From assembly GCA_000310025.1 (NCBI GenBank), contig FN647938.1, positions 197,629 to 240,545 on the forward strand: a stretch of DNA of 42,917 nucleotides. The letters are read 5' to 3'. Positions 1,034 to 42,917 of the stretch are shown in pieces. This DNA is from Ectocarpus siliculosus. Taxonomy: Eukaryota; Sar; Phaeophyceae; Ectocarpales; Ectocarpaceae. A model generated the notes under the pieces. The model saw only the letters and a program-made list of their open reading frames with translations. It was not told the DNA's origin and did not search any database. Every line of letters begins with the position of its first letter. Position 1 is the first letter of the stretch. A program made the position numbers and the translations under genes.

Positions 1034-3366
1034 ATCCCAAGGGCAGTCTGCTCTTGTCAGGCCGTTCGCCGCTCGAGTAGTTGCTGCTGCTGAAGCCGAT
1101 GCAACTGCTGAGGCTAGCAGGAACGACAACGACGCCAACAGTCACAACAGCGACAGCTTGCTCGCCGCAGGAAACGCTTATCCGACCGTCGGGGGAACGG
1201 CCAACGCGCCATCACCGTCCCTGTTTGGTCAAAAAGTGAGTGGGTGGTCTGCCATCTTGGCAACTACTGATATGTATCCTCTCCCTGTCCACTCCAGCTT
1301 ACGGTGTCGTGTCGGCACCCATGCATGTGCATACCCTCCTTTAGGCTTTCCGGAATCGGCGAGAAGGAGAAAGGTTTTTCGTCATGTTAACGGTTCAACA
1401 TGTTGGGTCGCCACGTGGGCAGGGTGTCGGGGACGGACTTGTGACACCCGCCAATACGTATTTCATGTTTTCTCATCGTATTGGCCCCCCAATCGAAACA
1501 TACCTCCGCTAGGCATTTCGCTCGGCACCCTAGTTCAATTGGATAGGGGATTGAGTGTTTCAAGAATGAGAAACGGAACTGATCTCCCTATTTTTCGTTT
1601 TTGGATGGCACGAACGGTGGCTCTCATTTTCAACCGTGCTGATTGGCTCAACTCTCACCGGTCTTTGTCACTGCCTCCTTCCCTTGTGCCTGTTTGAAAA
1701 ATCCAACCTATGACGTTGTGGTGTGTGGTGTGTGGCGGGGGACCCCAAGGCTGCGGTGACAACTGTGTTCCTGGCGTCGGAGCCAGTGGTGATGGTGGCT
1801 CTATCGGTGGGATTGAGGACGAGTGCCCCTGGGTGAGATATTGGTGGGGGGGGGGGGCGGTTGCCTGTAGCGGTAGACCGCATTTACCCGATGGCACAGC
1901 AGTTGGCCTGTCTGGATTGTACGCTGGTGCGCGCAAGTAAGACACTGCTGTGTTTGTCGGGCGTGAGCTTGGTTTTGTGCCTCATTGCTGCGCCATCACA
2001 CACTCGAGCCCCCAAACCCCATAGCAGCCAGCCTCGTGATCCTGCGGAGCTCCTTTCAAGCGACCTTTCCTCCCTACCAAAATTCACCACCTGTCCCTTG
2101 CTGTACTCCAAGTACAATACAATCGTGGCTGCCGAGTATGGCACCTTTGGTTAGCCGGGGTGCCCCATCAACCCATGACATGTCTGGTTTGGTTTGGAAC
2201 AGCGCAGGCAAGGATGATGGCCAGCTCCTGGTTCTCATGCTTGTGAAACGTAGCCTGGGCCGGCGGAAACTCGGCATTATCGCTCCGTCGCGGCATTGTA
2301 GAGATTCGAAGTCAGTGGTCTAACGAAATGACCACGGCATGCATTTACATGAGTACCCCCCTCCCCATATTTTCAGACTTTTGCTGGCGAACGAGCGCCG
2401 CCCCAGCAGCCGGCTGGTCCTGCTGAGCCTCCTGGACGCCAACCTCCCCGTGCTCTACTCGATAGTGGCCCCCCACGCCATCGAGGCCCTGTGTGTGGAG
2501 CCCCGCAGCGGCAGGATCTTCGCCGCTCGGTCCATGACCTCTGCTGCTGCTGCTGCTGCTGCTGCTACCGGTACCGGTGCAGCTGCTACAAGTATTGCTG
2601 TGGGCGGAGCCGGCGTTGGTAGTGGTGCGGCCGGGGGGCTAGATTGGGGGGCGAGGGCGTTGTCGAAGGGGGGGATCGTCGGGTCAGGAGACGTCGATGC
2701 CGCCGGTGCTGCCTGGAACGGCTCTGCAGAGGGCTGGATGGGGATGGCGGGAGGGGACGGGGGAGGAGGAGGAGCCGTGAGCGTGTTGGCGCTAGCCAGC
2801 GGGAGCTTTCTGGACCGTGGTCCGTTGCGGTGAGTTGGGATTGGGAAGCGGCGTGTTGGTCATCGCGTTTCTTGTCGCCTCTCTTGTTGCAGATGCATGT
2901 GATGTATTCACGTTGCGTTTGGTTTCATGCTTCAGGGTTTGATTGTTGTCTGTGTACGACACCGCTGTTTCCGCGAGCGGGAGGAGGCTTGATGCAGTGC
3001 CGTTATGACGTCTTGCCCATGGTATGGAGGCAGGCGCAGGCCTTTTTTTCTCTTTTTCCGACGCGGTTGTGTTTTGATGTTGGTTCCCCGCCTTTCGCTC
3101 CCATTGGCGGTGGACTGCGCGACTTTGCGATTGTATCAGCCCCCCGTCGCCCGTCGCGCACAAACCACACTTTCTACAGCAGTCAGTAGTCAGTACTTGC
3201 CTGCTGCACGCGGCCCTCCGTCCCTCGTCGCTCTGGCAGGGTGCTGAATACTACAATGGAGGTGCCGCCGACGGTTTTCTTGGAGGGGGTCAAGGGGCGC
3301 GACGAGACATCATCGCCGAATGCTGCCCGAACGCAGCAGCAACCGCTTATACCGCTGCCGCTACAG
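1034..3366 (+). CDS. exons for the end of the first beta-propeller
   Basis: Four exons. Exon 1034-1235 (alternative acceptor at 1061) is Ala/Asn/Ser-rich and ends in frame at an AAAAA|GTGAGT donor. Exon 1750-1832 encodes a blade-like strand pattern (TVFLASEPVVMVALSVG) after an AAG acceptor. Exon 2377-2829 encodes VLYSIVAPHAIEALCVEPR and then an Ala/Gly-rich insert including a GCT-repeat poly-Ala run at about 2542-2566. Exon 3240-3366 ends at CTACAG|GTGGGT. The LYSIVAPHAIEALCVEP segment matches, in order and spacing, the YPLPRIKTIEVHP-type end of the first propeller in plant TWD40 proteins as I remember them. Earlier blades are not visible. The first two exons rest mainly on phase agreement and are less sure than the last two. 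Confidence 0.5.
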
Positions 3367-6300
3367 GTGGGTGCACAACGACACGGAGCTCTTAGTAGTA
3401 CACTACGCTTTGCCAGTCGCTGAAGTAGTTCGTTCGTTGGCATATCACTTTCCTTCTCGGCACACCTTCAGATGAAAGCCGCTTGGATAGATGTTAGATA
3501 GCACTTGGGATGAGGTGGGAGTTGGGAGGCAATACAATGGTGGTCTGAACGCGCGGTTGCTTTAGGGTTCTCGTTTACCGTGTGTCGCCGTTTGTTTTGT
3601 GCTCATCGGCGATTCGAGTTGCAACGTCTCCCCTTCCACCCCACAAACGCTGAACATCTGCGGTACACTCCGAGCCATTATAGTGTTTGTGTGTGAGACC
3701 CCAGGATCGGGTTCCCTTGATCCTGTGGACGTTGTTGCTAGTACAGGTGGGTGCCCTCTAGCACAGATGGAATCCTCAAGATATTATTGTTAGTACATTG
3801 AATAGCACCGATGGAATACTCAAGATACATACGGTTAATTCATTGAATAGCGCGGGTGCCCGCTCGCTATAGTGCGCGGGTAAGAGCGCTTGACGCATAC
3901 CCGCACCATCTAGGGCACCCGACTGCTGAAGCTGTGTTTCCTCCACAAATGATGTCGACCCCATGCCCTACTCTCGACTTGGCGCGCAGGTTTACTTCTT
4001 GCGAACCATGGCGGTCCTTATCCAGGCAGGCCCAGGGGGTGGCTTGGATGTTCCAGCTGTCAAGGCCGTCCTGCATGCGCAGGGGTTGGAACGGTACGAA
4101 TCCCCCCGCCCACGAGCGCTTCCCAACTTAAACTCATCCGGGCATGGCCAAGAGCTGGGGTCTTTCTCACTCCAACATGTGTAAATTATTTGTTGAATTT
4201 CCTTCGGCAGTATTGTACTATTAGTCTATCTTCCTTTGCCCGGCTACGTTGAGGCGCAGCGTGGCTGCTTTGCGTGACCAAAGACTGTGCTCTCCCATCC
4301 CATGTCATGCCATCTCATGCCATGTCATGTCACGTCACGTCATATCACCTGACACCGTACACCGTACGGGGGAAGGAGAGGGTACTTTTCTTTCTGTGGG
4401 TTGGGCGCTGCATCCATAGCGATTTACTCATCGTCAGTAGGGCTACTGTAGATGCCGCCACTGTCTGTCATGCAGCGAATGATACCATACCGCATCATGT
4501 TGACGAAGTGCCCCTCAACACATGCGTTGTTTCGTTCTGATCTGAGGCCAGCTTTATTTTTTGCGACCGAACATCGGCTGCCCGGCCGGTATCGCCCCCT
4601 TCTCTTTGGTGTATCCGCGCGACTATCACGCTGCAGAGTAGGCGTTGCCCAGCCCTTCCCCGGTGTAGAAAGTCAACGTCATCTCCTCTGCATCGGTGAT
4701 GAACACAGGACAGAAATTAAAACACACGGCACCCCGTTCGGCGTTCCGTCAATTGCATTTTTCGCTTTTTTTTTGCGTGCAGGGACAAGGGTCTGAAGGA
4801 CAGGAGTAAACCTAGGCGGCTGGCGTCTCTACCGGGGCACACGGATGACCTCCTCAGGCACACCACGGGAGAGGTTCGGCGTCTTTGTCTCTGTCTGTCT
4901 CCTTCCCTATGTACCATGCCGTATTTTCACTTGTGTGTCTTTGTTGGTAGACTCGACCGCGCTAACCGGCTGGCATTGACAAGACTTGCCTCTCAGTGCG
5001 GCTAAATCCTGAAAATTCTTCTCTATAGCCCCCATGGTCTGGGGGGGCGTTGGTGTGTGTGTGTACGGTGCAAGATGCGGTATTATTAAGTCGTCAAGCG
5101 TTGCTGTTCGCCGCTGTTTAGGTGACGTCGGTGATGATGCTGATGGTAAAGTATTCGGGGCGCGTGGGTGGTTCGGGTTGCTGCTACAATACTCTGTTTG
5201 CTGTCGCTAAGGAGTATCGGACTAGCAGGTCGTTCCGGTCGTGTGTTGTCGTTTACAAGGTCAAGTTCTCCGTGCTGCTTACTGTCCGTGCTGTTGCTGT
5301 GTCTTGGCGACGCCGTTGGCAGCTCGTGACGGCATGACGATGGTGATGGCGATGGATGGCGATGGTGATGACGATGGATGACGATGATGAAACCGAAACC
5401 GAAACCGTCACCCACCAACTCTTTTTTTTTTTTTTTTCCCACCAACAACACCCCTCAAAATAACGGCCCCGTGTTTTTGCAACAGTCCGCGGGGTTCCCA
5501 TCCGGACACCTGATGCCATATCGGCTCGTTGCGGGACCCCTGCTGAGGCTCTCGACGGCCGAGGGGGGTGGCGCTGCGGCTGGCTTGGGGGGTGTCTCCC
5601 ACGAGGAACGTAGGCGCTTCTTGGTCCTGTACGAGATAGTGGCTACGGAGGGATCGGACCGACCGCCACCACCTAACAGAGGTACCGTACCGTACCGTAC
5701 CGTACCGTACCGTACCGTAGACACTGCCGTAGATACCGTAGATCGATAGATCGACACTTCTTGTTTTTTGCCTCCTATTTTGTGTGATTGTTTGTTTTAA
5801 GCAGAGGGTTTCTTTTTGTGCAGGCGTTTTCACCGTGTAGAGGCTGCCCAGGCGTGGGCTTCTCTCGCCACTCATCCTTAGTCTCTCAGTCTCTTAGTCT
5901 TGTGAAGAATATATTTCAAGTTTCATGAAGTTGTGGTGTCATGGGTGAGTCGATGCCCTTGCGAGAAATGGAGCTACTCTACTGCCATCCCGGATGCACG
6001 TGGTTGTACCTCCGTTGCACGAAACGCCTTCACAAAATGAGAACGGACTCCAGTTGTGTACAGGGGGGGCGGCGCAAGGGAGAGGGCACGGATACGTCGC
6101 TGTTTCATTCAGGCTTTCAAACTCACTCCGCTCTGGTTGCACTTTTTCCCTTATCGAAAGTCGACGCCAAGCAAAAGCTGCATCATCAAGCGGTTGAATC
6201 GTCAAAAGTGGTGAAATCACCAAATGGTTGAATCGGCTTGGCTTCCTTGCGGCATCTTGACCAAGGCCTGCTGTACGGTATTTTCACTTTTTCTGACCGT

Positions 6301-8280
6301 GTTCCCGGGTTTAACATTTCCCCCCCTGGTTTTGGATGAAAATTTACGAAGACGCGGCGTTGCGGGAGACATCGCGGACGGTGTGTGGCCTGGTGACGCC
6401 TGCGGGATACGGAGAGGCCCACGGCAGGTGGGCACGACTGGCTTTGGCGAACGGCGAATACTGCGTGCAACGTTGATTTGTTCCAAACAACGAGTGTGTG
6501 TGCGTGTGTTTATTTGTTCCAAGCGGCACGCCTCGTTTTGGAAAACTTAAGCTTCGATCCTAAATAGCGCTGTTGTTCTTGCTGCCATGAAATCCATACG
6601 CGTACACGTCGAACAGACACTTTTTCGCCGTTGTTGCTCTAGAAAAGATGGCGAAGTGTATTCACTTCTATTCCATGGTATGTTACGTCATACCATGGTA
6701 CGGAATATGTTGTATTGAAAGTTTCTCGTTCGCTTAGTACCTATTATACCTCCTAATATATGCTTTCGTGTCGTCTGTGTTGTGTTTGACCTTCCCTTCC
6801 CGGTCCACAATTATCAATATGCGTGGTTGTTTTTTGTGGTGTTTGACTGTGCTTCACACCATGTACCCCATGTACTGCTGTATTCCCATGCTGCCGGTGC
6901 TGCTGCTGATGCTACTACTGCTGGTGGTGGTGGTGCTGGTCTGGTGCTGTGGTGCATGGCGTCGGTTACTGCCTGATAATTGGTACACCCGGGTCTGGTG
7001 TTGATCTGGCTTGGTCTGGTCCTACCCCATCTCCAGATACGAGAACGAAGCACAGCTGAGCCATCTCTTCCCGGCTACGGTGAGACTATTACTATTTCTA
7101 TTACCATTACCATTAGTACGTATTACTGTTATTACCTTTTTGTTACTATCACTATCACCATCACTATTACTACTATATTACTACTATCACTATCACTATC
7201 ACTATCACTATTATTTATCACTAGTTAGTCGTAAGCCTCATTCCGCCATTCCCGCCATTTCCGTAGTACTTGGACGGGGCTATACTGTACTGTACCTACC
7301 GAAGAAGGAGACGACTAATCCCATTCCCGGCTAGGGTTTGGGGGGGGGGGGGGGGGGGTGTACTCATAGTCCGTGCATGCCGTAGTCGTTTGACCATTGA
7401 CCTCGCATCCCTACAAAGCCGGGACGGAGCACGCCGGGTTCACACCGGACCAGGCTCTCACATTCACCAAGCGCGAAGCGCCGTGAGGTATTTGGCGAGT
7501 CGCATGAAGGGTGAGCTGCATCCTGCTAAGTGTGTTCGGCATCTTGTGCTTACTTCCTTGCGCACGGATGACAGCTACGTATGACTTAATTTATTTTCTG
7601 GTGCTTTCACTTCCAGAGACAGTTGTAAGCACTGTGTAACTGCCTCGAGGAAGCTTGACCATTTTAACACAACGTGGTGCGATCATCCCCCGTTGTGCGG
7701 AGTGAGGTTTCTCGACCCCGCACAACATGATCTACTCGACCACCATTATGGTTACCGCCAAAAAAAAACCAGAGGTAAAAAAAAAACGGTAACCTGGTTG
7801 CCGAGTTCACGAAGTGAATTGGCTTGTTTTACAACGTCGTTGCCAATCGACGAAAACCCAATCCCGATGGCAAACATCGAGTGGGGGGCTTGTTTTACAA
7901 CGTCGTTGCCAAGCGACGAAAACCCAAACCCCGACGGGGGGGGGGGGCATTTCCGTAGTACTTGGACGGGGCTATACTGTACTGTACCTACCGAAAAAGG
8001 AGACGACTAATCCCATTCCCGGCTAGGGTTTGGGGGAGGACGGGAAATGCGTGTGTTCGAGTTCGTGCACCACATCACACATCTAGGTTGTGGCATGTCA
8101 CCGTTGAGATGGTTGATATCGACATGCAGGCTTGAAAACCTACTAACGCTTAGCCGACGAGTTTCATTGCAATGGCTGGCTGTCTCCTGCCTTGTACGTC
8201 AACCGCTCAAGAACACGCCGAACACCTCTCCCGTGCCGTCCATGAGCACCGCGCGTCATCGTCCTTTCCAGAAAGAAATC

Positions 8281-8317
<37 letters not shown>

Positions 8318-9746
8318 CGGAAAGTCAAGGCTGACCGTTTCTTCTCACGTGCCTGCCCTTCCTTCCATTCCTCAACACCGCGGCAGGATGGCTGCTTCGT
8401 GTCCACGTCCGCGAACGCCGGAGCCGAGCCCTCGGCTTTGCTGGTGGAGGGAGGTGGCTATCTGGCGGCGGTGTACTCGATACCCGACATGCAGATGCTG
8501 GGTCGGAAGGCCCTCTCCCTGCCGGTAACCAGGGTGATTGCCACGCCAGAGTGCTTGGGTCCGCAGCGGGGCAAGGTGAGGGGAGCTCGTCGGGAGGCCG
8601 CTATTGTTATAGTCGCCCGAACATGGTTGGAACGCGTCGAAAGTTGCTTCGATATATGGTTGGAAGATGTGTCTCAGCTTTGTGACTGTCTCCCCTTTGT
8701 CTCGCGGAGCCTCTCCGTGTGTCACGGACTTGCCTCGCACGTTGATAAACAAGCAACCTCTTTTATTTCATGATGCGGCGTCTGACTTCATGATTTCATG
8801 ATGCCGTGTCGTGTCGTGTCTTCCAGGTGTTGTACGTCGTTCGATCCCCACACACCCCGTCTGGCTTTCTGGAGACCATGGTGTACAGCGACCGCGGAGG
8901 ACTTCAGTGCCCGGAACCCCTCCTCCCGGTGAGTATTTAGCATTTAGTATTTAAATTTAGTATGTGATGTTTTTCTTTGGTGGTTCTTTCTTTCGTTTTT
9001 TTGGAACAGAGGCCGTTGTCGTTGTCGACATCAATCAATCAATCGTGTTGGAAGAGGCCATTTTTGTTTTTTTCTCTCTTGTTTTTGTCAATACAATGGT
9101 TTATTTGTCGAACAATCAATCGATCAACCGCGTTGGAGGAAGTCATGTTTTTTTTTTACTTTTTTCATAGACCAATGGTTTCTTGATCGATCAATCAATC
9201 AATCGTGTTTGCTTGAATACAGCTTCGGCCTTCCAACGGTGTAGGCTTTGCACCCTCGCCGCCGTGCGTGCACGAAAATTGTTCCTCACGCCCTTGGGTG
9301 CTTGCATGTGTTCTCCCCGTCTATATTCTGGCGCCGGTCTACGACACACTGCGGTGTGTAGGTTTGTCGTATGAGCCGGAACCACACATGAGGAAGGTTT
9401 CACAACCAGAGCTTTGTAGTTTTTATGTTATTGTGATGCCCCACCTTCCCTTCCTTCCGTCCTGCTGGGTGTTTTTTTTTTTAATTCGGTGTGTGTGAAG
9501 GTGGTCTCACAAGGTGAAGGAGGCGGTGTCGCCCCGGGGTGGGCAGGAGGTCGGCCGTACGCTAACGCTCATCTCGTGCTGGAGCCCTCTGAAAGAGTTG
9601 TCGACGCGAAGTTCCAGCAGCTCACGACCGTGACGGAGCTCGCGACTTGGGGTTACAGGGTAAGTCGGCAGAGTCGGTGGGATTGGTGATCTTGCTGGTG
9701 TTATTGCATTTGATTGGTGTTGGTAGCGTCTTGCTGGTGCTGCTGC

Positions 9747-9783
<37 letters not shown>

Positions 9784-14931: not shown

Positions 14932-14975
<44 letters not shown>

Positions 14976-18555: not shown

Positions 18556-18587
<32 letters not shown>

Positions 18588-21500
18588 GCACAAGGGTACT
18601 TTGTTTCAACCCCGAGCACATTGGCTGACGTGAGGCTGGCTGCTCTACGTTGGAGATGTAACGTAGGATTACGAATTTTAGGATAGTGTTTGGTCGTCAC
18701 GTGCTTGTTCTTGGTTGTTGTAAATCATCTACCGTACAACCTGCACGGTACCCGTTTGGCCGGACATCGAACCAACGTATGCGTGTACCCTGACACACGT
18801 ACTGTATATCACAAGTATTTTTATGTTGCTTGAGGTGGTATCGCTTGGCCACACGTTTTGGAGCCGACAAAGATCCAGTGCTCGCGAACATTGCCCCCTT
18901 CACTCGACCTACTCGAGCAAACATGAAGCTCCGCCTTCCAACGCGCCACCATTCCCGCGCCCCCTCGTTCCCCTCCCCACTGCGCCTCGACTGCTTTCAC
19001 AGGTAGCCTTCATCCCTGGGCCCGGAGGGCGGCGCGATTTAGGACCCGGTTTCTCCAACACCGTCGGCGAGGGTGAAGACGGGCACAGCGGTGGAAGCGC
19101 CAAGATTGGGGCTCTGAAGGAAGCTGTCTACACAGAAGTATGCTAGAACCGTGGGATTTTCTCCGTTTTTTTCGAGTCGTCGTCGTCGTCGTTATTGTTG
19201 TTGTTATTGATTTTCTGTTGATGTTGTTTTTGATTCTCTGTTGTTGTTTGTCGTTTTCGTTGTTGGTTTTGGTTGCTATACTGTTAAGTGTTTCTTCTTC
19301 TCGGGAACGTTGCGAACAGCGCATGCCGTCACGGTCGAGAGAAACGCGACTCAAACTTCCCCTACCCCACCCTTTATTATCACCTTCCTGTTGGCGACAT
19401 GATCTCCGGTCGTACCACCACCGACAGCCGGGGGCTTTTTCGTGGGACAAGTGGACTCACGTTGCGGTGTCAATGGACACGTCGAGGGACGAGAGCTCGG
19501 CAGAAGTCCGGCTGTTTTTGGACGGGCATAGGGTGGGGTTCGGCACGTGCAGGTTCAACAAGGTGAGTAATGCCACAGGTCCGCCAAACCACTTCCCGAA
19601 ACAACCGCTACTACACATCATTTGGTTGGTCAATCGATCACATGCATGGCAAACGTCCCAAACCTTTCCAACTACCAGGCACAACTGTGAGTCTTCGGTA
19701 TATTTCCACCATTTATGTTTATGAAGCCGCGGATATATAGATTTTTTGCGTGTAGCTGGACCCAGCGGTGGTTAGAAACGATGGCATGTACCATGGAACA
19801 ACCAGAGAGCACTGCCGCACGGTTGTTTCGCTCGTATTTTTCCTATTGTTCAGGTACAGCGGTTCTCTCTGTCGGACACGTGGATGGTGCTCGGCCCAGA
19901 TCTGGTGGGGTGGAAGTTGTCAGAGACAAGAGTGTGGGCCATGCTCAGGGACGAAGATGCTCTGCAGGCAAGACACACGCTCCCACTTACACGAACTAGC
20001 ACGCGTGCAGGGCGTTGCCATGGTGCCAACATGCTACTTCTGCTTATGAAGCAGTTTCCGGTCTTGCTGGTTTTGTCATCCGGAACGTTCTGCCTCATTT
20101 ACCGTGCCTGTTTGTCTCGTCTCGACCTCACCTGCCCTGGTATTGTAACACTGGAAATGTCAGAGGGGTGGAAACCCTCGTATCACGCATAACCGCACTC
20201 CCTCTTCGTTGGCTTGATCCTTGTGCTTGGACATCCGACCAAGGCGACGTGACTACGGGAAAAGCAAATAATGACAGGTATTACACCCACCCCCCCACTC
20301 TGTTGTGAAGGATTGGAAAGAGAACTCTCTCTCTCTCGCTGAGACAAAGAAGGCGAGGCTTATCATCCGCGCGGCATCCAAGGCGAAGACTTCAGCCCCG
20401 ACGTTAAGAAGGGGCCCCGGAGGAACAACTCCCGGGAAGCTTGCGCCTCCCCCCCGTCCCACTCCTGGGACCCCCGTGAGACGGAGGTGAGGGCATGAAG
20501 GCCGTCAAGGTCTGGTTCATGCTGCATGGCGGTGTTTGTGTGCAGAACGTTTTTCCTGGAAGGCCTCCGACGGGAAGTCCAGTTGATCATGTATCTATAT
20601 CGCCTTGTTTCCCGTTACGATGAGATGAGTCACCAAGAACAGACTCGGCCGAATATTGATGCAGAACGCGGTTTCTGTTGGACGGCAGCGTTTGTGCAAC
20701 GCATTGCAACTCGTTGGTTTTCATGTGCACGGCTGTTGCCTGGACTCGCCACAACATGAGCCGGAGTGTTGCACAGAATGAGATATATGGGACTAGGGTC
20801 GGTCATCCTTCATTGCCTCATTACACAGGACATTTGACACCCGTGATGTGTTCTTTGGGTTCCCTCGGTCGAGGTGTTTCTTGTCGCGCATGCCGCACAT
20901 CGAACCTCGAACTTGAGTCGCCCGCCCAACGCTCCGCCCAACTTCCGCGCCAGGGTGATGTCGGGGCTAGCTCCTCCCCCGCAGGGTGCCATTGTGGACC
21001 TCGGGCAAGGGGGCATGGCGCCCCTGCCCGGATCGGGGACCAAAGATCCCCGAAAAAGTCGTTCACGTGCAGGTTCGGGCTCCGGGATTGTGATCGCTCC
21101 ACGGTTGAGGTGAGCGGCCGGCCGGCCTGTCGCCAAGGGTTAGTTAGAAAGGTGGCGATTATTACTCTTTGGGGAAGATGTTTCAGAAATACAAACGGTA
21201 ATAACTTTTCTCGTGTCGTTTTGGTACTATTTTATGAGTATCACACTATCTACGACGTGTAAAAAGACCAGTTTCGAGGTGCAGTTCCGTTTGCGGAGGC
21301 TGCAAGTGGAACTGCAATGGACCACCAACAGGGCGTAAGGGTTTGGGGGCACGGTTTGGCCGTATCTACATAAGTTGTATTGGAGGAGGTGACATCCTCG
21401 AAACTGGCGTTCCTGGACGAAAATTACGTCGGGGGCGACCATTGAGAACTCGGCGGAGCCTGCCGTGAATTATCACGGTTCACGTGCGTTGTAACAATTC

Positions 21501-24500
21501 ACGCGTTTAACATTTTCGCCTCCCCGTCCTCTGGCTGTCGCCCTCGCCGTTGCTCCTGCCAAGCACAGGCCACCGGACTCACCTTTCAGTCGAGACCCAC
21601 GAAAAGCTGCTCTGGCCGCTAGGCACACACCTAACAAACCAAAGCAAGAGCAACAACCGGACATGGATGCCCTCGCCGCTCCAGCCCCTCCCCTAAACTT
21701 CGCGGCGTTTCCTACAACGACGCACGGGGATGGGTCCGCCGCCCCCTTGTACGCTGGGGAAACCCAGCAGTCCAATCCGAACGTTGAAGCAGAAGGGGAA
21801 GCTGGAGGAGATGTTAAGGATAAGGCGTTGGGTTCTCCGGAGACGTCGGTCCCGGTTGTCGGCGAGGTCGCAGAAGGGGCACCGCAGTTGGGAACGTCAG
21901 GGTTTGCTTCGTTCCCGGTGGGAGGGACCCCGGCGGAGGTGGCCATGCCAATGGCAGGGTTTGCGTCTTTCCCCGACATGGGGAGTATTCCAGAAGTCAT
22001 TTCCACGCCGACGGTGTCACCTACCGCTGCGTCCTTCACGCACGCGTGGGCGAACTTCGAGGACAACAGAGGAAATGAAGCAGGTGACACGAAGGAAGCT
22101 GAGTCGGACGTGCGATATCCCGGCTTGAAGCTTGGCGGTGCGCCCCTCGCGACGCCAACAAAGTCGGACGTTTCTTCGCTGGCGAACACACCCTCTTCGT
22201 CGTCGGTGACGGGGAGCACGGTTGCTATGTTGGTATCCAAATTCGGAGGAGGGGGGACGGAGGTCACCGTCATTCGGGAGGGTGAAGATCTGCGAACACC
22301 CGATGCCGACAGATTGACTTCTCATCTTGGAGCGTTGAGCCCAGTTTCTGCGACTGCTGAAGACGATGTTGCCGAAGAGAGTGCGTCCGATCAAGGAGCT
22401 AGCACTGCTGGCGGAACGGAGGAATCCGTTGACGCGGCAGGGTCCAACCCAGTCACTGCGACTGGTGAATATGGTGTTGTTGAGGAAGGGTCGACTGACC
22501 AAGACGCGAGTACTGCTGGCGGGACGAATAATAAGGAAGCCGTTAACCCAGCAACGTTGAGCCCTGTGTCTGCGACTGGTGAAGATGACGTTGCCGAGGA
22601 AGGTGCGACCGTTCAAGAAACGACCAGTGCTAGCGGGATGGGCAACAAGGAAGCCGTTAACGCAGCAGCGTTGAGCACTGTCTCTGCGACTGGCGAAGAC
22701 GGTGTTGCCGAGGAAGGTGCGACCGTTCAAGAAACGACGAGTCCTGCCGAATCGGACAACAAGGAGGCCGTTAACACAGAGGCGAACCCAGTCCCTGCGA
22801 CTAGTGAAGATGATGTTGCCGAGGAAGGTGCGACCGACCAAGAAGCGAGCACTGCTTGTTGGGCGGATAACAACGAAACCGTTGACCCAGCCGCAGTGCC
22901 TCCTGCGGCTACAGACACACATCTTCATGGTCAATCATGCGCTGCGGAGGCGCACGGAGATGTGGCCGTTCAAGCAGAGGCCACCACTGTCCCCCCGGGA
23001 AATGATGATCCCACACCTGTAGACGAGGGTAGCCCCGTGATAGCACTCGAGGACGCTGATCAAACAGAGACCTCGAAGGTGCCAACCTCAGAGTCTACCG
23101 AGGCACCAAAGACAGTGTCTTATTCTGACGGCAGCATCAAACCCGTTACGGAAACGGGAGATCCGGCCACTCCAGGAGACCCGGCCACTCCAGGAGATCC
23201 GACCACTCAAGTTGAAGCAAACTTGAAAGAACCGGACGACGACGAGTCCAGGCAAGACGCAACAGGGATGGGGCCCGTGAATGTTTGCGACACCGAACAG
23301 GCCGACCCGGACAAGCACGAAGAGGAAGAGGAAGGTGGTGCACCTCCTGCACAGGAGGAAGACCATGCTCAAGTGGTGCCGGGACCTTCCACGCAGGTCT
23401 CCCCCCCATCCAATCAAGAAGAGGAAGAGGAAGGTATTGCACCTCCTGCACAGGAGGAAGACCATGCTCAAGTGGTACCGGGACCTTCCACGCAGGTCTC
23501 CCCCCCATCCAAGCAAGAAGAGGAAGAGGAAGGTGTTGCACCTCCTGCACAGGAGGAAGACCATACTCAGGTGGTACCGGGACCTTCCACGCAGGTCTCC
23601 CCCCCATCCAAGCAGCAACAGGAGGAAGAGGAAGGTGTTGCATCTCCTACACAGGAGGAAGACCATGCTCAGGTGGTGCCGGGACCTTCCACGCAGGCCT
23701 CCCCCCCACCCAAGCAGCAAGAGGAAGAGGAAGGTGTTGCACCTCCTGCACAGGAGGAAGACCATGCTCAAGTGGTACCGGAACCTTCCACGCAGGCCTC
23801 CCCCCCATCCAAGCAGCAAGAGGAAGAGGAAGGTGGTGCATCTCCTGCACAGGAGGAAGACCATCCTCAGGTGGTACCGGGACCTTCCACGCAGGTCTCC
23901 CCCCCATCCAATCAAGAAGAGGAAGAGGAAGGTGGTGTACGTCCTGCACAGGATGGAGAAGATACCCAGCAGGTGCCCCTTGCGGAAACTCCCACGCAGG
24001 TCTGCCCCCCATCCGAGGAAGGGGGAGCGACGGGCGGCGGCGGCGAGGGTGACCTGGAAACGTCGGAAACGTCGTCGACGCCGCGTGGCGATTCAAACGA
24101 CAACGCGTTGCCCGCGAGCAACGCTGCTGATACCACGAGTCCGGCAGATACGGCGGCATCTTCAGATGTTGTTGAGCGGGAGCAAGCAACAAGCAGCGAG
24201 ACCGCCAGTAGCACGCCGATGTCGGTTTCTTCCGTAGCAAAGAAAATCGCCCCGGCCGCGGAGAAGACCGCAGCGCTAACACAAGACCCTCGCAAGGTCG
24301 GCAGTGTCGAGCAAGCGCCGCCGCCTTCAACAGGTCCAGCTGAGCACGCCGGGGAAACAGACACCCTGAGCACGGGCCACGGTAGCGGTGTCACCAACGC
24401 CGAGCCAGAGTCAGGGTTGTCGACAGCGACAACCCCGGAAAACGAAGAGTCGCCGAGCAAGGGCGACGTCAAGGTGGGACCACCACAGTCTCCGACAGCA

Positions 24501-24857
24501 GCTCCGGAAAAGATCGAGACTAGCACCCCTGAGTCTGAGGAGTCAAAGGGCACGATAGCGCCGCCGGCAGCGGCTGCTACTAACGCGGGTGGGGGGGCTG
24601 GTGGAGGCGGTACTGAAATCCGCTCTCTTATCCTGGCGGGCTCCAAGGGTGTGTTTTCGACGGCGGAGCTAGCTGAGGGGCACGCCAGGTCACCGCTTCT
24701 TGGCTCCACGGGCACGGTTATGAGCTTGGCGTCGTCGCAAAAGAAGGTGGCTACCGTGGCGATTGTGGACTTGTGGAATGGGGGGGCCACGACAAGGTGA
24801 GATCGCGGCGAGTGGAAGTACAACTGCTGTGTGTGTTTGATAGGAGAAGGGTCGGAG

Positions 24858-24907
<50 letters not shown>

Positions 24908-27900
24908 GTCTTTCCAAGGGCACTGTTCAACATGCCTAGCGTCGAACTCGCCTCCCACTCCTATGCCCGATGATCCACAGAAGCTCGTGGACAGTCTCGA
25001 CGGGTTCCTGCCGAGTTGTCGGGGAGCATGTTTCGGGCCAGTCCAAATACTCTTCTGGCGGGACGTCTGCTGATTAACGCGCATTTGTCTTTTTGTTTGG
25101 TTCCTGATGCGCACATGCTAACACTTGGCCCAACATGTTGATGTTGTTACCGGCCGCTCTTGTTTGTGCCATAAAGATATCCCATCGGTTGCGTGAGCGC
25201 GGTTCTCAGCCCACGAACAGATGAGCAGGTCATCGCTTTGCTTTCGGAGCGTGGGATGCAGGTAAGACTATCGGCGTGACCATGATATTTTGTAACTTGT
25301 GACTGCCACATCCCGCAGATGCGTCTGCTCATCCCATGTCAGCGCTCACGGCGCATCTCTCTATAGTTTTTGCAAAGCTTCAGAACGGGTCCTCATCCTT
25401 CGAAGATGCCTCCTCTGTTTCAGCTTTCTACTGTTGTACACCCCCCTCTCTGTCTCCGCTACCAGCCCACCCAGATGTCTTGGGCTTGTGCTCATCGAGG
25501 TCCCCTCGATTTGTGCTTGACTCACAGTACTAAGCCCCTTACCATCCGCCCCTTGCCACATTCCTAGTTTTGAGTGTCCGATGGCCTTTACACTCGCGCA
25601 ACCCCACCGCATTCATGGTTGGTTTCTATTGCCCCCCTAATCAACCCATGTCATCTCTGGCTTGGTTTGGAACAGCAAACGCAAGGATGATGGCCAGCTT
25701 CTGGTTCTCATCCTTGTGAAACGCAGCCTGGGCCGGCGAAAACCCGTAATATCGCTCCGTCCCGGCGTTGCAGGGATGCGAGGTCAATGGTCCAACGACT
25801 ACGGCATGCGTTTACATGAGCCCCCCCTTGCTTCGTCATTGATGACACCCAGGTGTTCAGCGTGACCCACAGGGTTCGCAGGCGACACGTGGTGATAAAG
25901 TCGTCCAGCGTGAGGCTGTGGAAGTGGGTCGACGACGATGTGATCGCGATTGTCACCAAGGAGGTGGGTGCCTGAGGACGTTACTTACGCCAAGCGCCTC
26001 GACACGGGCCATGTCGGCCGTTCTCAAGACCCTGAAATATTGTTTCTGACGCGGCTGGACAAGTGGACTTTGGTCAACGGTAGTCACATATGTAGACCTT
26101 ATACGGAAACTTGGTGCTCAATGATATGGGTACGATTTAGGGTATGCATCTATCGTTTGGATGATGCACGGAATACTTCATACGTCTTGGACTCATATGT
26201 GTCGCTGTCTCTATGGGTCTGATCAACGACTTTTGTGTGCGAATGCTCGCCATGGGCCCTTCGAGAGACGGAATCCTGATGGCATGGACAATCCACATCT
26301 GCTAAGGCACCTGCCACGTTCCCCGTCTTAGCCTGGCCCGTTGGCGCGTATCCAATAGAGACTAGCGCCGGACGGCCTGGGGGTAGTGTCCAGGCATAGA
26401 CAGACATGTGCCTCAGTCTACAGCAGCCAGGCGGTACATACCTGATTCTGTTTCTCAACCGTTTTTGCGACCCTGTGACTCTGCACTGTACGCGGACCCC
26501 GTGCGCTGTCCGCTCCCAGGAGGTGCTCCGGTGGGATGTTCGAGGGACTGCCATGCCGAAGAAGCTTTTCACGCGGAATCGGCCATACAGCCCATCCCCC
26601 ACCGACGGTGCCAGCAGAGCTTGCGACTACCAGTGCACGGCTGACGGCAGGTGCTAATTATCGTTGGTACAAGAAGTGGTTCTAGGCTTCTCAGTGTACT
26701 CGGGACGGAGCACTGGGTGATGTTGGAACGGAGAAGGAAAGCAACAATGGGCACGTCTGGTAGCGGCTGTTTAGAACGTAGCGAAGTAGCGGAGAAGACG
26801 CACGCAGAGACAGCCTCCTTTGTGCGCGCGCTATTCACGCAGCGGTAGTCCTGCACGTGAAAGTTGACGCCCGAGAGATCACGCCCGTGTCATGCCCATC
26901 ACACGTCGTGCTGGTGCCGCTGGCCTAGTCTGGGGTCTTGCGACGTCGTGGTATGAAACCCGTACAGAGCGTTCAGGTGTAGTTGGGGGACCGACTTCAA
27001 CAGTGAGGAAGTCTGTTGTTTGGATTCTATGCATACGAGGGAGATCATTGCTCGTTGACATGCCGAGGCCATTCGGTTCTTGCCACAGATGGGGGCTGCT
27101 GTTCGTCGCCGACAAGGAGCGCATGTGTGATGGCTGCAGGCATGAGCCGCACGACACAACTCAGGACTGCTGTGCTTGCGAGGTACGACAAACGCTCGTA
27201 TTCGCTTGTGTGATGTTAGGTGGCCTCATATTTCTGTACCTATATGTCACACATCAGTCGAGTATTTTTCTCACATTCTGTGAATTGGAATTTTTCTTCG
27301 GGCACAATCCATCTGTTAGGCGGACAATAGGTTTTGGTCTTGGTTGGTGCGCCGAATAGGTTTCAAGTAGACCGCGTGGACAAGTACATTGCAGCATGCC
27401 GAATGCTCACCTATTTTGCTCTTGCCCGCTCTTGTCGACACGTGTGGCGAATCCTGAATCTCTTAGCCCCAACCAAGAGGGTTTAGTTCGATTCAAAAAT
27501 GAAATGTCAAAACCTGGCAAGGTCTCGTCCAAAGGGTCACACCTAGAAGCGCCCGCGTTATCTCTGACTCGCCCGAATCCAATGGTTGATGCTCTCTTTT
27601 TGGACCATGACATCGTATTCGATCGCAATTCGCACCGTGCCTGGCGTCTTTATACCCACCAGCTGTGGATTGACTCCAGTGAGCTAGAAGACCGTCGGTA
27701 CTCGTTTTTGACACTCTTCACCCTCTGACACGCTTCGGTTGTTTCTGCATCCGTTTGCTTTTTTCAATTCTTGAAGACTTCGTTGCTGCTGGACCTTCAC
27801 GACTTCAGTGGCACGGCAAACACGCGCTGTTTCCGCGCCCTCGGTGCCTCCCTGTTGGACATCCCGCACCGGCCAGCGGCGGATGCGACACCCCCGGCGA

Positions 27901-29196
27901 TGACGGCGGGTGCGCCAAATCATTCGGAGGGTACGTGAAGCTACGCCCCGGTGCTTGCGAGTTTCCTCTGTCTTTTTTTTTCGCTCTTTCTTCTGTTTGT
28001 GTTGGGTGGTACATTGAATGCGCAACACCCGTGGCGGGCGTGGTCACTCATGGTGGCATCAGAAAGTGTTGCGCTTGCGGGTGGTTGGTCGGTTTACGGT
28101 GTGTTTTGGCTGAAGCCCCTGCTGGTCATGCCCACGTGGGTTGAGGTGAGTTCTGTCGCATGTCCAATGAAGGTGCTGTCTATTAGTGGCGTATGTCGCA
28201 TCTGTCTCACAAAGGTACAACAATTGTGGTAGGCGCAGAGGACTGAAGAGTTCCTACACAACTTCGCTCGCTTCCTCTGAATTAAACATTTCACCAGCGA
28301 GCGATCGGTTCTTTGATGTCCAAGGTGCTGCGTACGAACGGCCTTGACCCTCACGCCACGAACGCGAATTTTCTACCGTTGTGCCAGGGTTCGAGTGGGA
28401 CAAGCCCTTGCTGGCGGCTGTTATTCCAGACGCCGACACCGGCTTGAACCTTCTTCAACTGCTGCGGCTCGGCGACCGACAAGGCGGTGGTGGCGGAGAT
28501 GGCGACTGTCTTTGTTCGGCGGTCTTGCAGGAGGAGGGTCAACAGCACACCGGTAATTCAATTCTGTCAACCGCCCTGTGTTGAGAGTACCGTTGAGGCC
28601 GGTCGGTTTCTTTTTGATAAGTCCCACAAGACGAACCCTGACGGATTTCTTCTTCGAAGTGGCTTTGCCACCCATCGGATAGCCCCCAGCTTTCACCAGA
28701 CAGGTAAAAACACGATGTAGTTCTAATCGGACACCCGGGCAGTTTAACCCATGTACGTTCACCCGTGTGAGTTCTGTTTCTAGACGCTGTGTTGCCCTCT
28801 GAAGCCCATACAATCGCTCTTTTCCCACCTCCGCTCCCCCCCTGCTGTGGCACTACTGCTATGGTCGAACAATGCGTGGCACCAGGGCTTCGCCAACTCC
28901 AGCGAAGCCTGAGGGAATCGAAACTGCCCGCTGTGCCGTACAGAATCTTACCTTGGAGACCGGCGCCAGGAATAGACCTTATCGTCGTTGTGACCCTCGC
29001 GGGGGCAATGACGGTTTTCAAGATTGAGCCCGAGGCGGCCGCTTTGACGAAGGTTTCGCACGACGGGCAGGCGTTTCCTGCGGGGGTTGTGGACGTCGAG
29101 GAAGACTCGCTCCACGGGGACCTAGTGGTGCTGTCTGCCGCGGCCGGGGAGGATCGGACCTGGGTAGTTTCTCGAGCATCGAAGGAGGTATCCTGA
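1034..29196 (+). CDS. giant TSET scaffold (TTRAY/TWD40-like) protein with ConA-like domain and C-terminal clathrin-type propeller, 5' partial
   Basis: Exons: 1034(or 1061)-1235, 1750-1832, 2377-2829, 3240-3366, 3990-4093, 4783-4873, 5486-5681, 6352-6427, 7037-7079, 8387-8575, 8827-8928, 9501-9659, 9918-10159, 10685-10924, 11388-11570, 12098-12313, 13059-13220, 14150-14525, 15054-15272, 15670-16095, 16819-16977, about 17522-17719, 18305-18520, 19003-19137, 19428-19562, 19854-19967, 20311-20486, 20918-21109, 21272-21334, 21590-24796, 25177-25261, 25853-25963, 26520 to about 26887, 27777-27931 (end 27930), 28388-28552, 28784-29196. Exit and entry phases agree at every junction except around 26650-27777. 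The TTRAY half and the clathrin half are linked by 21334 to 21590: both are phase 2, the acceptor is strong (ctcacctttcag), and no stop codon or intergenic gap intervenes. Known: TSET is a COPI/clathrin-adaptor relative acting at the plasma membrane or endosomes. Inferred: this protein is a coat scaffold. The alternative is two genes, the second starting at ATG 21663. Confidence 0.62.
2168..2366 (+). mobile_element. short interspersed element copy with poly-C tail, next to a 3' splice site
   Basis: The copy runs from about CAACCCATGACATG to CATGAGTACCCCCC. It aligns along its whole length (about 190 bp, roughly 80% by eye) with the copy at 25642-25827. Its C-rich tail merges into the polypyrimidine tract of the acceptor at 2376. 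Its 3' end resembles the end of the LINE at 41.4 kb. Confidence 0.65.
3759..3850. repeat. two tandem ~45-bp units in an intron
   Basis: Units begin TAGCACAGATGGAATCCTC at 3759 and TAGCACCGATGGAATACTC at 3803, with the start of a third at 3848. They are intronic and no function is evident. Confidence 0.6.
3990..4873 (+). CDS. exons for the inter-propeller helical linker
   Basis: Exons 3990-4093 and 4783-4873. The first encodes YFLRTMAVLIQAGPGGG, which aligns with the KQLFAVLQSARGSS segment that follows the first propeller in plant TWD40 proteins (from memory). It enters in phase 0 and leaves in phase 2 (CG|GTACGA). The second enters in phase 2 after tttgcgtgcag, is basic (DKGLKDRSKPRRLASLPGH), and leaves in phase 0 at a weaker GAG|GTTCGG donor. 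Both phases fit their neighbours, and the other two frames of the second exon contain stops. Confidence 0.55.
5486..10924 (+). CDS. exons for the second beta-propeller (TTRAY/TWD40 signature region)
   Basis: Exons 5486-5681, 6352-6427, 7037-7079, 8387-8575, 8827-8928, 9501-9659, 9918-10159, 10685-10924. This is the best match to TTRAY/TWD40. Shared landmarks in the same order are: HEERRRFLVLYEIVAT (plant SRKRHLFLVVFEFSGAT); ALLVEGGGYLAAVYSIPDM (plant AILDEDKTGLSMYILPKL); LPVTRVIATP (plant TEVDRIFSTP); LAVLTTRRVLMLSA (plant AGILTTQRVLMVSA); VSVAWAGSSVVCTLEDGR (plant SLLWVGPALLFSTT); and GIAACLPDRLCLV (plant VGALNDRLLLA). Plant sequences are from memory. Known role of the family: structural propeller of the outer TSET layer, analogous to alpha- and beta'-COP. 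Exons 6352-6427 and 7037-7079 are short and rest on phase plus partial similarity. Confidence 0.68.
5682..5718. repeat. GTACC microsatellite starting at a 5' splice site
   Basis: About seven GTACC units begin exactly at the GT of the donor after exon 5486-5681. Confidence 0.85.
7256..8037. repeat. direct repeat pair, about 87 bp, 692 bp apart, plus a 66-bp-period pair inside
   Basis: The block starting CATTTCCGTAGTACTTGGAC occurs at 7256-7342 and 7948-8035 with one visible mismatch, both ending in GGCTAGGGTTTGGGGG. Between them, a ~50-bp unit beginning GGCTTGTTTTACAACGTCG occurs at 7821 and 7887. All lie in the intron 7080-8386. The first copy is interrupted on its right by the antisense poly-C-tailed element at 7340-7460. 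Confidence 0.75.
7340..7460 (-). mobile_element. poly-C-tailed interspersed element copy (antisense)
   Basis: On the minus strand it reads GAGCCTGGTCCGGTG onward through GGTCAATGGTCAAACGAC and ATGAGTACAC, then 19 C. It is nearly identical to the sense copy at 15525-15630 (a few differences in about 100 bp), so the two are recent relatives. Confidence 0.75.
8282..8317. repeat. CA microsatellite (intronic)
   Basis: About 18 CA dinucleotides, located about 70 bp upstream of the exon beginning at 8387. Confidence 0.9.
9738..9783. repeat. CTG/TTG trinucleotide repeat (intronic)
   Basis: Three CTG units are followed by about twelve TTG units in the intron after exon 9501-9659. Confidence 0.85.
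10177..10285 (-). mobile_element. poly-C-tailed element copy (antisense), diverged
   Basis: On the minus strand it contains GGACGCGTGGTCAATGGTC, the same terminal block as the LINE at 41.4 kb, and ends in a C-rich run (G-rich 10177-10194 on the plus strand). It begins about 17 bp downstream of the 5' splice site at 10160. Confidence 0.55.
10970..11072. repeat. GTAGATGTC repeats (intronic)
   Basis: The nine-base unit GTAGATGTC occurs in two short clusters near 10970-11000 and 11046-11072 within the intron after 10924. Confidence 0.75.
11388..15272 (+). CDS. exons for the alpha-solenoid of the TTRAY-like part
   Basis: Exons 11388-11570, 12098-12313, 13059-13220, 14150-14525, 15054-15272. The first begins RPFFPLEPLVAGVL, matching the VGLLEPLLIGF motif that joins propeller to solenoid in plant TWD40 proteins. 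Helical segments follow: LLDDGTLQVLRRIVARY, CSAFRVLSRYGLHVLAAEV and LSLGEQSARLGLHEAAARLF (plant LGYACIKYGQFDSAKETF). Ser- and Ala-rich insertions separate them. The first four junctions are phase 2 and then phase 0. The acceptor at 13058 sits right after a CTG-repeat tract that may supply pyrimidines. The solenoid is short compared with COPI relatives. Confidence 0.62.
14936..14973. repeat. GA microsatellite (intronic)
   Basis: A perfect GA run preceded by imperfect GACA/GAGA repeats from about 14888. On the minus strand it creates spurious Ser/Leu frames. Confidence 0.9.
15525..15630 (+). mobile_element. poly-C-tailed interspersed element copy next to a 3' splice site
   Basis: It runs from GAGCCTGGTCCGGTGAG through GGTCAATGGTCAAACGAC to ATGAGTACACCCCCCCC. 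The tail leads into a C/T-rich tract and the AAG acceptor at 15669, about 40 bp downstream. It closely matches the antisense copy at 7340-7460. Confidence 0.75.
15670..19967 (+). CDS. exons for a concanavalin-A/LamG-like beta-sandwich domain
   Basis: Exons 15670-16095, 16819-16977, about 17522-17719, 18305-18520, 19003-19137, 19428-19562, 19854-19967, all phase 0. The domain opens near the end of the first exon with CGYWRFSEGA. It continues with GVFVRAVRGSSIDVGLF and VATVEVWVNAGK, then FHVLACRVSASGEHVWSLV, the hallmark WDKWTHVAVSMDTS followed by EVRLFLDGHRVG, and closes with WMVLGPDLVGWKLSETRVWA. W-x-H-V-A plus L-F-L-D-G is typical of LamG/pentraxin-like sandwiches. No signal peptide is visible, so the domain is probably cytosolic. 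The start of the third exon is uncertain (17405, 17408 or 17522 all keep frame). The last exon ends at CAG|GCAAGA, a GC-type donor. Confidence 0.6.
18521..18588. repeat. GA microsatellite followed by a G run, starting at a 5' splice site
   Basis: The donor GTGAGAGAACGAGAG leads directly into imperfect and then perfect GA repeats and ten G. Confidence 0.85.
20311..21334 (+). CDS. exons for a basic, proline-rich linker
   Basis: Exons 20311-20486, 20918-21109 and 21272-21334. The first encodes a helix (SLSLAETKKARLIIRAAS) that runs into PPPRPTPGTPVRR. The second is Pro/Gly/Arg-rich (RPPNAPPNFRARVMSGLAPP). The third is a 63-nt microexon, FEVQFRLRRLQVELQWTTN, which looks like a charged helix. All three leave in phase 2, and the next exon, 21590-24796, enters in phase 2. 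The acceptors are non-CAG (AAG at 20310, GAG at 20917). No enzymatic motif is visible. This linker carries the frame from the ConA domain into the clathrin-bearing half, so its correctness matters most for the fusion claim. Confidence 0.5.
21590..24796 (+). CDS. 3.2-kb exon: acidic disordered region with two repeat arrays, running into the clathrin-like propeller
   Basis: This is one open frame of about 1,069 codons. An ATG at 21663 could start a protein, but the frame is open upstream to 21494 and a good acceptor at 21589 gives the phase needed to join exon 21272-21334. The first ~130 residues contain recurring aromatic motifs (NFAAFP, GFASFPVGG, GFASFPDMG, AWANFED), reminiscent of short adaptor-binding motifs. 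Two tandem arrays follow, then Ser/Thr/Ala/Glu-rich low-complexity sequence. The last ~60 residues become structured: VATVAIVDLWNGGATTR aligns with QVVIIDMNDPSNPIRR of clathrin heavy chain (from memory). The exon ends at ACAAG|GTGAGA in phase 2. Long antisense frames here are shadows of the repetitive codons. Confidence 0.8.
22337..22895 (+). repeat. coding tandem array, about five degenerate units of 37-39 residues
   Basis: The unit contains a VSATGEDDVAEEGAT core followed by QEASTAGGT and NKEAVNPA. Five recognisable units occur with substitutions and small length changes, all in frame, each about 110-117 bp. The degeneration suggests this array is older than the one at 23319. Confidence 0.75.
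23319..24017 (+). repeat. coding tandem array, about seven units of 32-34 residues
   Basis: Each unit reads approximately EEEEEGVAPPAQEEDH and then QVVPGPSTQVSPPS. Copies begin near 23319, 23418, 23517, 23619, 23721, 23817 and 23915, and the last is divergent. High nucleotide identity between units indicates recent expansion. The strand is strongly acidic (five Glu in a row) alternating with Pro/Ser, so it should be unstructured. Confidence 0.85.
24640..29196 (+). CDS. C-terminal clathrin heavy chain N-terminal-domain-like beta-propeller
   Basis: Exons: end of 21590-24796, 25177-25261, 25853-25963, 26520 to about 26887, 27777-27930, 28388-28552, 28784-29196. Landmarks in clathrin order (clathrin from memory): VATVAIVDLWNGGATTR; VSAVLSPRTDEQVIALL (clathrin DSAIMNPASKVIALK); MQVFSVTHRVRRRHVV; VRLWKWVDDDVIAIVT (clathrin VTFWKWISLNTVALVT); EVLRWDVRGTAMPKKLF (clathrin AVYHWSMEGESQPVKMF); IIVGTRSGS (clathrin LLLTGISAQ); VVLHVKV (clathrin KLHIIEV); and LPAVPYRILPWRPAPGIDL with VVVTLAGAMTVFKIE (clathrin HDVVFLITKYGYIHLYDLE). 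The frame stops at TGA 29194-29196, right after the last blade. There is no alpha-solenoid leg and no trimerisation region. A GAG|GTATCC donor at 29187 could in principle extend it. The path between 26650 and 27777 is uncertain. Confidence 0.66.
24860..24903. repeat. GA microsatellite (intronic)
   Basis: About 21 GA dinucleotides lie 60 bp after the donor at 24797. Antisense Ser-Leu frames here are artefacts. Confidence 0.9.
25642..25827 (+). mobile_element. poly-C-tailed interspersed element copy next to a 3' splice site
   Basis: It runs from CAACCCATGTCATCTCTGG through GGTCAATGGTCCAACGAC to CATGAGCCCCCCC. It is followed after about 25 bp by the CAG acceptor at 25852 of a clathrin-like exon. 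The internal part shares a readable frame with the 2168 copy (DDGQLLVL, VKRSLGRRK), which may be a remnant of element coding sequence or chance. Confidence 0.65.
26520..26887 (+). CDS. clathrin-like exon carrying two apparent single-base frame breaks
   Basis: The exon enters in phase 0 after cgctcccag and encodes EVLRWDVRGTAMPKKLF to DYQCTADGR. The frame then meets TAA at 26655. Similarity continues at once in the next frame (LIIVGTRSGSR), as if one G were missing from AGGTGG near 26650-26653, which would restore the conserved Trp of clathrin W-L-L-L-T-G. That frame runs to FVRALFTQR and stops at TAG 26847. Similarity continues in the third frame as VVLHVKVDARE. Alternatives are a sequencing error, a decayed allele, or a 35-nt intron at 26651-26685 for the first break (it begins gtgcta, ends tctag and restores frame). 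The 3' boundary is not certain. Confidence 0.45.
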
Positions 29197-41393: not shown

Positions 41394-41415
41394 GGGGGGG
41401 GGGGGTGGGGCGTAC

Positions 41416-42901: not shown

Positions 42902-42917
42902 GGGGGGGGGGGGGGGG

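Follow-up and report, generated by a model that had tools for sequence, protein, structure and literature searches.

A predicted Ectocarpus protein combines a likely TSET scaffold with a clathrin-type terminal propeller

The stretch of DNA analysed here (the window) comprises 42,917 nucleotides of Ectocarpus siliculosus and corresponds to positions 197629-240545 of contig C456, in a genome that was searched over 189 Mb and 492 contigs. Exons were read in the three plus frames, chained by splice site and phase, and refined with two homologous proteins, those of Scytosiphon promiscuus and Pylaiella littoralis (P0001 and P0002). A plus-strand gene with 34 exons over 2377-29196, consistent phases and no internal stops was traced through the window as one chain (Table 1). 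This model holds 3057 codons before the stop, its first codon being completed by an upstream exon, and 32 of its 33 introns are GT-AG, the remaining one being GC-AG. The GC donor belongs to the intron after the exon ending at 19967. Two further exons were found 5′ of 2377, and the predicted gene start (MLSFRPVGTL..) was matched ~6.3 kb upstream of the window, past an assembly gap. A run of N on the contig ends at base 1 of the window and masks part of the first propeller; G-rich low-complexity runs border it on its window side.

A previous reading of the letters (the sequence-only reading) had described TTRAY, ConA-like and clathrin motifs in this order, and their location on the same strand in splice-compatible exons was confirmed. 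Its chain 2377..29196 held as one phased, stop-free chain, but the gene begins well before it and exons had been missed. The motif-bearing exons stood, while ~1026-1235, 1750-1832, 3990-4093, 4783-4873, 6352-6427 and 7037-7079 had to be added. In the propeller, 25177-25261 also belongs to the chain, and the last exon begins near 28886.

Table 1 Exons of the predicted fusion gene in the window.
Feature	Position	Strand	Basis
Exon, first-propeller region, ..ALVRPFAARVVAAAEADATAEAS..SLFGQK	1026..1235, start uncertain	+	read against Ectocarpus protein P0123
Exon AAVTTVFLASEPVVMVALSVGLRTSAPG	1750..1832	+	tblastn of P0001 and P0002; phase compatible with 2377
Exon, N-terminal propeller region	2377..2829	+	homologue tblastn and final model
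Exon	3240..3366	+	homologue tblastn and final model
Exon VYFLRTMAVLIQAGPGGGLDVPAVKAVLHAQGLE	3990..4093	+	homologue tblastn and final model
Exon DKGLKDRSKPRRLASLPGHTDDLLRHTTGE	4783..4873	+	homologue tblastn and final model
Exon, second-propeller region	5486..5681	+	homologue tblastn and final model
Exon AALRETSRTVCGLVTPAGYGEAHGR	6352..6427	+	homologue tblastn and final model
Exon YENEAQLSHLFPAT	7037..7079	+	homologue tblastn and final model
Exon, second-propeller region	8387..8575	+	homologue tblastn and final model
Exon, second-propeller region	8827..8928	+	homologue tblastn and final model
Exon, second-propeller region	9501..9659	+	homologue tblastn and final model
Exon with LAVLTTRRVLMLSA, collinear with plant TWD40-1	9918..10159	+	final model and profile comparisons
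Exon, second-propeller region end	10685..10924	+	homologue tblastn and final model
Exon with PFFPLEPLVAGVL	11388..11570	+	homologue tblastn and final model
Exon, putative alpha-solenoid	12098..12313	+	homologue tblastn and final model
Exon, putative alpha-solenoid	13059..13220	+	homologue tblastn and final model
Exon, putative alpha-solenoid	14150..14525	+	homologue tblastn and final model
Exon 3′ of putative solenoid	15054..15272	+	homologue tblastn and final model
Exon, ConA-like domain start (..CGYWRFSEG)	15670..16095	+	homologue tblastn and final model
Exon, ConA-like domain	16819..16977	+	homologue tblastn and final model
Exon, ConA-like domain	17522..17719; acceptor 17522 or 17564	+	homologue tblastn and final model
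Exon, ConA-like domain	18305..18520	+	homologue tblastn and final model
Exon, ConA-like domain	19003..19137	+	homologue tblastn and final model
Exon, ConA-like domain (WDKWTHVAVSMD..LFLDG)	19428..19562	+	Laminin_G_3 E 0.00097, below Pfam cut-off
Exon, ConA-like domain, GC donor	19854..19967	+	homologue tblastn and final model
Exon 3′ of ConA-like domain	20311..20486	+	homologue tblastn and final model
Exon, linker start	20954..21109	+	homologue tblastn and final model
3228-nt exon, disordered linker (FAxF, WxxF) and first clathrin-like propeller strands	21569..24796	+	tblastn, model, motif count
Exon, clathrin-like propeller (YPIGCVSAVLSPRTDEQVIALLSERGMQ)	25177..25261	+	homologue tblastn and final model
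Exon, clathrin-like propeller; VFSVTHRVRRR (clathrin-box groove), VRLWKW	25853..25963	+	PDB searches and hhalign
Exon, clathrin-like propeller (EVLRWDVRG)	26520..26650	+	PDB search, tblastn, final model
Exon, clathrin-like propeller	27089..27182	+	homologue tblastn and final model
Exon, clathrin-like propeller	27777..27930	+	homologue tblastn and final model
Exon, clathrin-like propeller	28388..28552	+	homologue tblastn and final model
Last exon, final propeller strands, stop TGA	28886..29196	+	homologue tblastn and final model

The Scytosiphon and Pylaiella proteins both aligned exon by exon to the model in tblastn searches, with an identity per 100 aa of 52-94% over residues 1-1000, 42-82% in the ConA-like region (residues 1101-1600), only 4-25% in the linker (residues 1701-2600) and 56-80% in the propeller, from residue 2701 to the end. 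The gene product also shares 94% identity with the partial protein P0123 of Ectocarpus sp. 12 AP-2014, on an alignment of 604 residues.

A dispersed repeat that occupies several introns was found at 2167-2360, 15526-15630 and 25640-25827 on the plus strand and at 7348-7412, 10180-10248 and 41400-41462 on the minus strand; read in the direction of the gene, three copies lie just ahead of a 3′ splice site. The genome yielded 1008 first-look candidates for this repeat, and the 40 that were scored (query copy included) were 96-100% identical. Downstream of the gene, a plus-strand frame at 35798-36301 resembles protein phosphatase 2C (Pfam E 0.0012, slightly under the cut-off), and 42557-42916 on the minus strand carries a retroelement reverse transcriptase (RVT_1, E 2e-12). 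An Rfam search yielded nothing useful, and no inverted repeats were found in the one intron where they were sought.

The data support one predicted protein whose N-terminal part is protocoatomer-like and is followed by a ConA-like domain, then a disordered linker and finally a propeller of the clathrin N-terminal domain (NTD) type. The sequence-only reading had pointed to other brown algae for the same domain order, and the whole chain is indeed annotated as a single protein in S. promiscuus (3304 aa) and in P. littoralis (3252 aa, partial). With the C-terminal region as the query, these two proteins were the only matches among 7988 scored candidates of 0.55-1.75 times the model length (63% and 59% identity, respectively, each covering 99%).

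Two adjacent genes might have been falsely merged by the prediction, one ending in the linker and the other encoding a short clathrin-NTD protein, as the gene model is a prediction from genomic sequence and P0124, a related protein annotated with 1822 aa, stops soon after the ConA-like domain. However, the 3228-nt exon has no stop between the beginning of the linker and the first propeller strands (RSLILAG..VDLWNGGATTR), and both of its ends are conserved in the homologues. Since the linker and the first propeller strands share this exon, the join is no splicing guess, and a misjoined neighbouring gene was rejected because a single exon spans the join. Two more species are annotated with the same fused protein, and we regard a false merge as very improbable. 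The junction 21334-21590 that had been drawn earlier was ruled out by tblastn: the homologues read ..RLRPP..SRDPRKAALAAR, fitting 21109 joined to 21569, and the latter junction replaces the former because the Scytosiphon protein reads RLRPPIPATSRDPRKAALAAR where the new join gives RLRPPDSPFSRDPRKAALAAR.

When the window sequence alone was compared with the PDB, clathrin heavy chain was found at E 2.9e-11 over residues 49-179, a match spread over several exons. Clathrin accounted for all 18 matches up to E 0.0012, and the remaining 2 of 20 (E 0.03) were hydrogenase maturation protease. A three-alga profile likewise matched nothing but clathrin up to E 1 (18 of 18 matches, E 1e-15 to 2e-5), with significant homology over residues 33-168, and hhalign against a pair of human and Ectocarpus clathrin NTDs gave a probability of 97.9% over human residues 43-168. 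The significant match is limited to blades 1-3 of the propeller, a second, collinear match further along being weak (P 0.15); the overall identity to the clathrin NTD is ~20-24%, with large insertions after blade 3. The AlphaFold models had a mean pLDDT of 29.8 (propeller) and 27.6 (N-terminal part), too low for fold comparison. Chance or a generic WD40 identity of the C-terminus was rejected on the E values of the window alone and of the three algae. The choice between clathrin NTD and generic WD40, named beforehand as the refuting test, thus falls to clathrin by sequence, and on this basis the C-terminal propeller has its significant homology with the terminal domain of the clathrin heavy chain, ahead of any other propeller.

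The genome also encodes a canonical clathrin heavy chain on contig C86, where its NTD exons were read and the clathrin repeat family matched 8 times. Searched against its own genome (10 candidates scored), the propeller found its own 8 exons and C86:132983-133165 (E 3e-4), an NTD exon of this canonical heavy chain. The human clathrin NTD matched five C86 exons and did not find the window gene, and the clathrin propeller family PF01394 had no match in the genome, the controls being unmatched as well. Pfam searches of the two fused homologues, taken up to E 1, found no clathrin leg family, and the model stops at 29196, directly after the propeller. Being without legs, the fused protein cannot be expected to form a clathrin lattice or cage. 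The earlier idea of a clathrin-like function without clathrin finds no support, given the canonical heavy chain in the same genome and the absence of leg-family matches in the fused homologues. Because the alga has this canonical heavy chain, bridging or competition would be likelier than replacement.

Laminin_G_3 matches (E 0.00097 in the window, 0.0013 in Scytosiphon and 0.0016 in Pylaiella, all below the curated cut-off) suggest a ConA-like domain in the middle of the protein, and its position ahead of a disordered region agrees with the order first read. The linker is acidic and disordered, about 700-1000 residues long (1009 in the window, 712 in Scytosiphon and 698 in Pylaiella). In-frame tandem repeats of the linker exon, at 22333-22891 (114 bp x 5.0, 73% matches) and 23312-23953 (99 bp x 6.5, 92%), may account for the longer Ectocarpus linker. 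The FAxF motif occurs in 3, 2 and 2 copies in the window, Scytosiphon and Pylaiella linkers, each count being reached by 0 of 300 shuffles, and WxxF, an adaptor-ear ligand, in 1, 1 and 3 copies (4, 13 and 0 of 300 shuffles had at least as many); in P0124 there is one WxxF copy, a count reached by 24 of 300 shuffles. None of these three linkers has a clathrin-box motif of its own.

The N-terminal part is likely TTRAY1/TWD40-1 of TSET. The TTRAY/TWD40 identity proposed by the sequence-only reading fits through the intermediate homologue P0124 and weak collinear matches, but the direct algal-plant comparison was non-significant: against nine plant TWD40-1 proteins, a single N-terminal match was obtained (probability 6-11%). 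The plant TWD40-1 profile scored the brown-algal proteins no better than shuffles, and protein P0003 had no match in the genome. Compared with one plant TWD40-1, Scytosiphon residues 1-60 and 120-460 gave z 5.9 and 5.1, and nothing stood out at 690-1200, 1040-1250 or 1230-1570. With three plants, its first 60 residues gave z 6.1, 3.6 and 2.6, and its second-propeller end and solenoid gave nothing.

A middle-region query matched 2 of 7987 scored proteins, P0123 and P0124 (36% over 65% of the query). P0124, a JGI hypothetical protein, aligns with the window model from residue 134 to 1680 at ~35% identity; the alignment begins in the N-terminal part, covers the ConA-like domain and reaches the start of the linker. 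Unlike the window protein, P0124 is annotated to stop after a WADFDAF motif; it may be a relative that is either not fused or truncated. Its second-propeller end matched three plant TWD40-1 proteins at the collinear place with z 6.7, 9.1 and 8.6 (0 of 300 shuffles each), its solenoid with z 1.6-3.5 and its first 480 residues with z 1.8-3.0; its first 60 residues gave nothing against the three plants (z -0.6 to 0.9). A four-sequence profile including P0124 scored one plant above 100 shuffles and the other three below one shuffle. With hhalign, the five best local matches of the profile with P0124 to the plant profile were collinear, the reversed profile gave none better than P 0.37, and the collinear chain score was beaten by 1 of 24 block-permuted decoys. 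By blastp at E up to 10, P0124 matched 46 of the 120 plant proteins listed, and all 47 matches fell at three ordered collinear places, none below E 0.15. For the first propeller, the two fused homologues gave WD40 matches slightly under the cut-off of 27 bits (E 2.5e-5 and 1.3e-5; 25 and 26 bits), and the second propeller and the solenoid are suggested by the collinear matches. The N-terminal part alone had no match in the PDB, and Pfam gave sub-threshold matches only on the model pieces. PF23953 and muHD (PF10291) had no match in the genome, the controls also remaining unmatched.

The N-terminal part could also belong to another protocoatomer-type double-propeller protein, for example a COPI-alpha/beta′-like or unknown scaffold, and the clathrin NTD fusion would then still stand. 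Besides the weak brown-algal matches to plant TWD40-1, alpha-COP was the best PDB family after clathrin for the four-sequence profile, and the N-terminal propeller matched it best in the PDB (E 2.9e-5). The same match agrees with the Dictyostelium TTRAYs, which are nearest to beta′-COP and then to alpha-COP according to PMC4031984. However, Pfam found no COPA/B second-propeller or TPR domains in the model pieces or the fused homologues, the two matches of the COPI second-propeller family in the genome, both under the cut-off, being on contig C20. The high z scores of P0124 at the collinear place, the collinearity of the N-terminal, propeller and solenoid matches, and the TSET subunits reported from the phaeophyte-xanthophyte group (PMC12167817) also speak for TTRAY1/TWD40-1, and we consider another scaffold improbable.

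Mutation of clathrin Q89 or F91 weakens clathrin-box binding, and W164 is a binding-residue site of the clathrin NTD (PMC5182127). In the hhalign alignment, each of the three algae has the same residue as clathrin at Q89, F91 and W164. Of T87, K96 and K98, which we take to be groove residues of clathrin, the first is Gly in the algae and the other two are Arg. At the W-box residues Q152 and I154, all three algae have Arg and Cys instead. The alignment is uncertain beyond residue 168, where the arrestin-box Q192 aligns to Asp, Asp and Ala and is not kept, L183 aligns to Leu and the Royle-box residues have no match. The low overall identity to the clathrin NTD, the replaced W-box residues and Q192, the Gly at T87 and the big insertions after blade 3 could mean that the fusion is real and the propeller folds but has lost peptide binding, so that it serves the coat in a structural role or through protein interactions and does nothing clathrin-like. 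However, Q89, F91, Arg 96, Arg 98 and W164 are the same in three diverged species and fall in the best clathrin-matching part, and we judge such a loss to be unlikely, if less so than a different scaffold.

TSET (the TPLATE complex) is an ancient vesicle coat, and its scaffold and the adaptor-catching head of clathrin are usually on separate proteins. By its collinear matches, the predicted algal protein would have an N-terminal blade, a WD40 propeller, the end of a second propeller and a solenoid segment in the order of TTRAY1/TWD40-1; it differs from plant TWD40-1 by a ConA-like domain, a long linker and a clathrin-type propeller, and by a very low identity. With the clathrin heavy chain NTD it shares the homology over residues 33-168, Q89/F91, the basic pair and W164, whereas its propeller is C-terminal, no legs were found, the W-box and Q192 are not kept, and there are insertions after blade 3. 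TSET fusions are known (PMC4031984): plant TSAUCER carries an SH3 domain, and a TSET subunit is joined to a sequence that encodes F-BAR. These fusions are alike in that subunits gain domains, but they bring no clathrin domain and concern no TTRAY. The F-BAR-joined subunit is presumably TCUP in opisthokonts. A 2025 survey (PMC12167817) reports all six TSET subunits for the phaeophyte-xanthophyte group taken together and, among single stramenopile libraries, for Blastocystis only; the word "fusion" is absent from its main text. No description of a TSET-clathrin NTD fusion was found in the literature searched, a scope that excludes most subscription journals and bioRxiv. Domain gain by fusion is known for TSET subunits, and a clathrin terminal domain on a TTRAY-like scaffold was not found described.

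On balance, we favour a TTRAY1/TWD40-1-type TSET scaffold that has been extended by the ConA-like domain, the linker and the clathrin-type propeller, and whose propeller would capture clathrin-box adaptors. The N-terminal part would sit in TSET at the membrane, and the propeller would swing on the linker, catching the LPhixPhi[DE] clathrin-box peptides of adaptors shared with clathrin. The linker itself may bind adaptor ears through its WxxF and FAxF motifs. The propeller would thus most likely tether clathrin-box adaptors to TSET, which would thereby hold them or hand them over, bridging to clathrin coats. It is conceivable, although here our doubts slightly outweigh our confidence, that in brown algae the combination of TTRAY1 and a working clathrin terminal domain made TSET a clathrin-adaptor docking coat, recruiting adaptors or competing for them. 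If true, this would be a hybrid coat absent from the plant TWD40-1 proteins listed (120 of 390; search up to ~1940 aa), none of which exceeds 1711 aa. With a TTRAY-like scaffold and a clathrin terminal domain covalently linked in nature, a TSET-clathrin connection would become testable in brown algae, and the fusion may serve as a sequence marker for brown-algal endocytosis.
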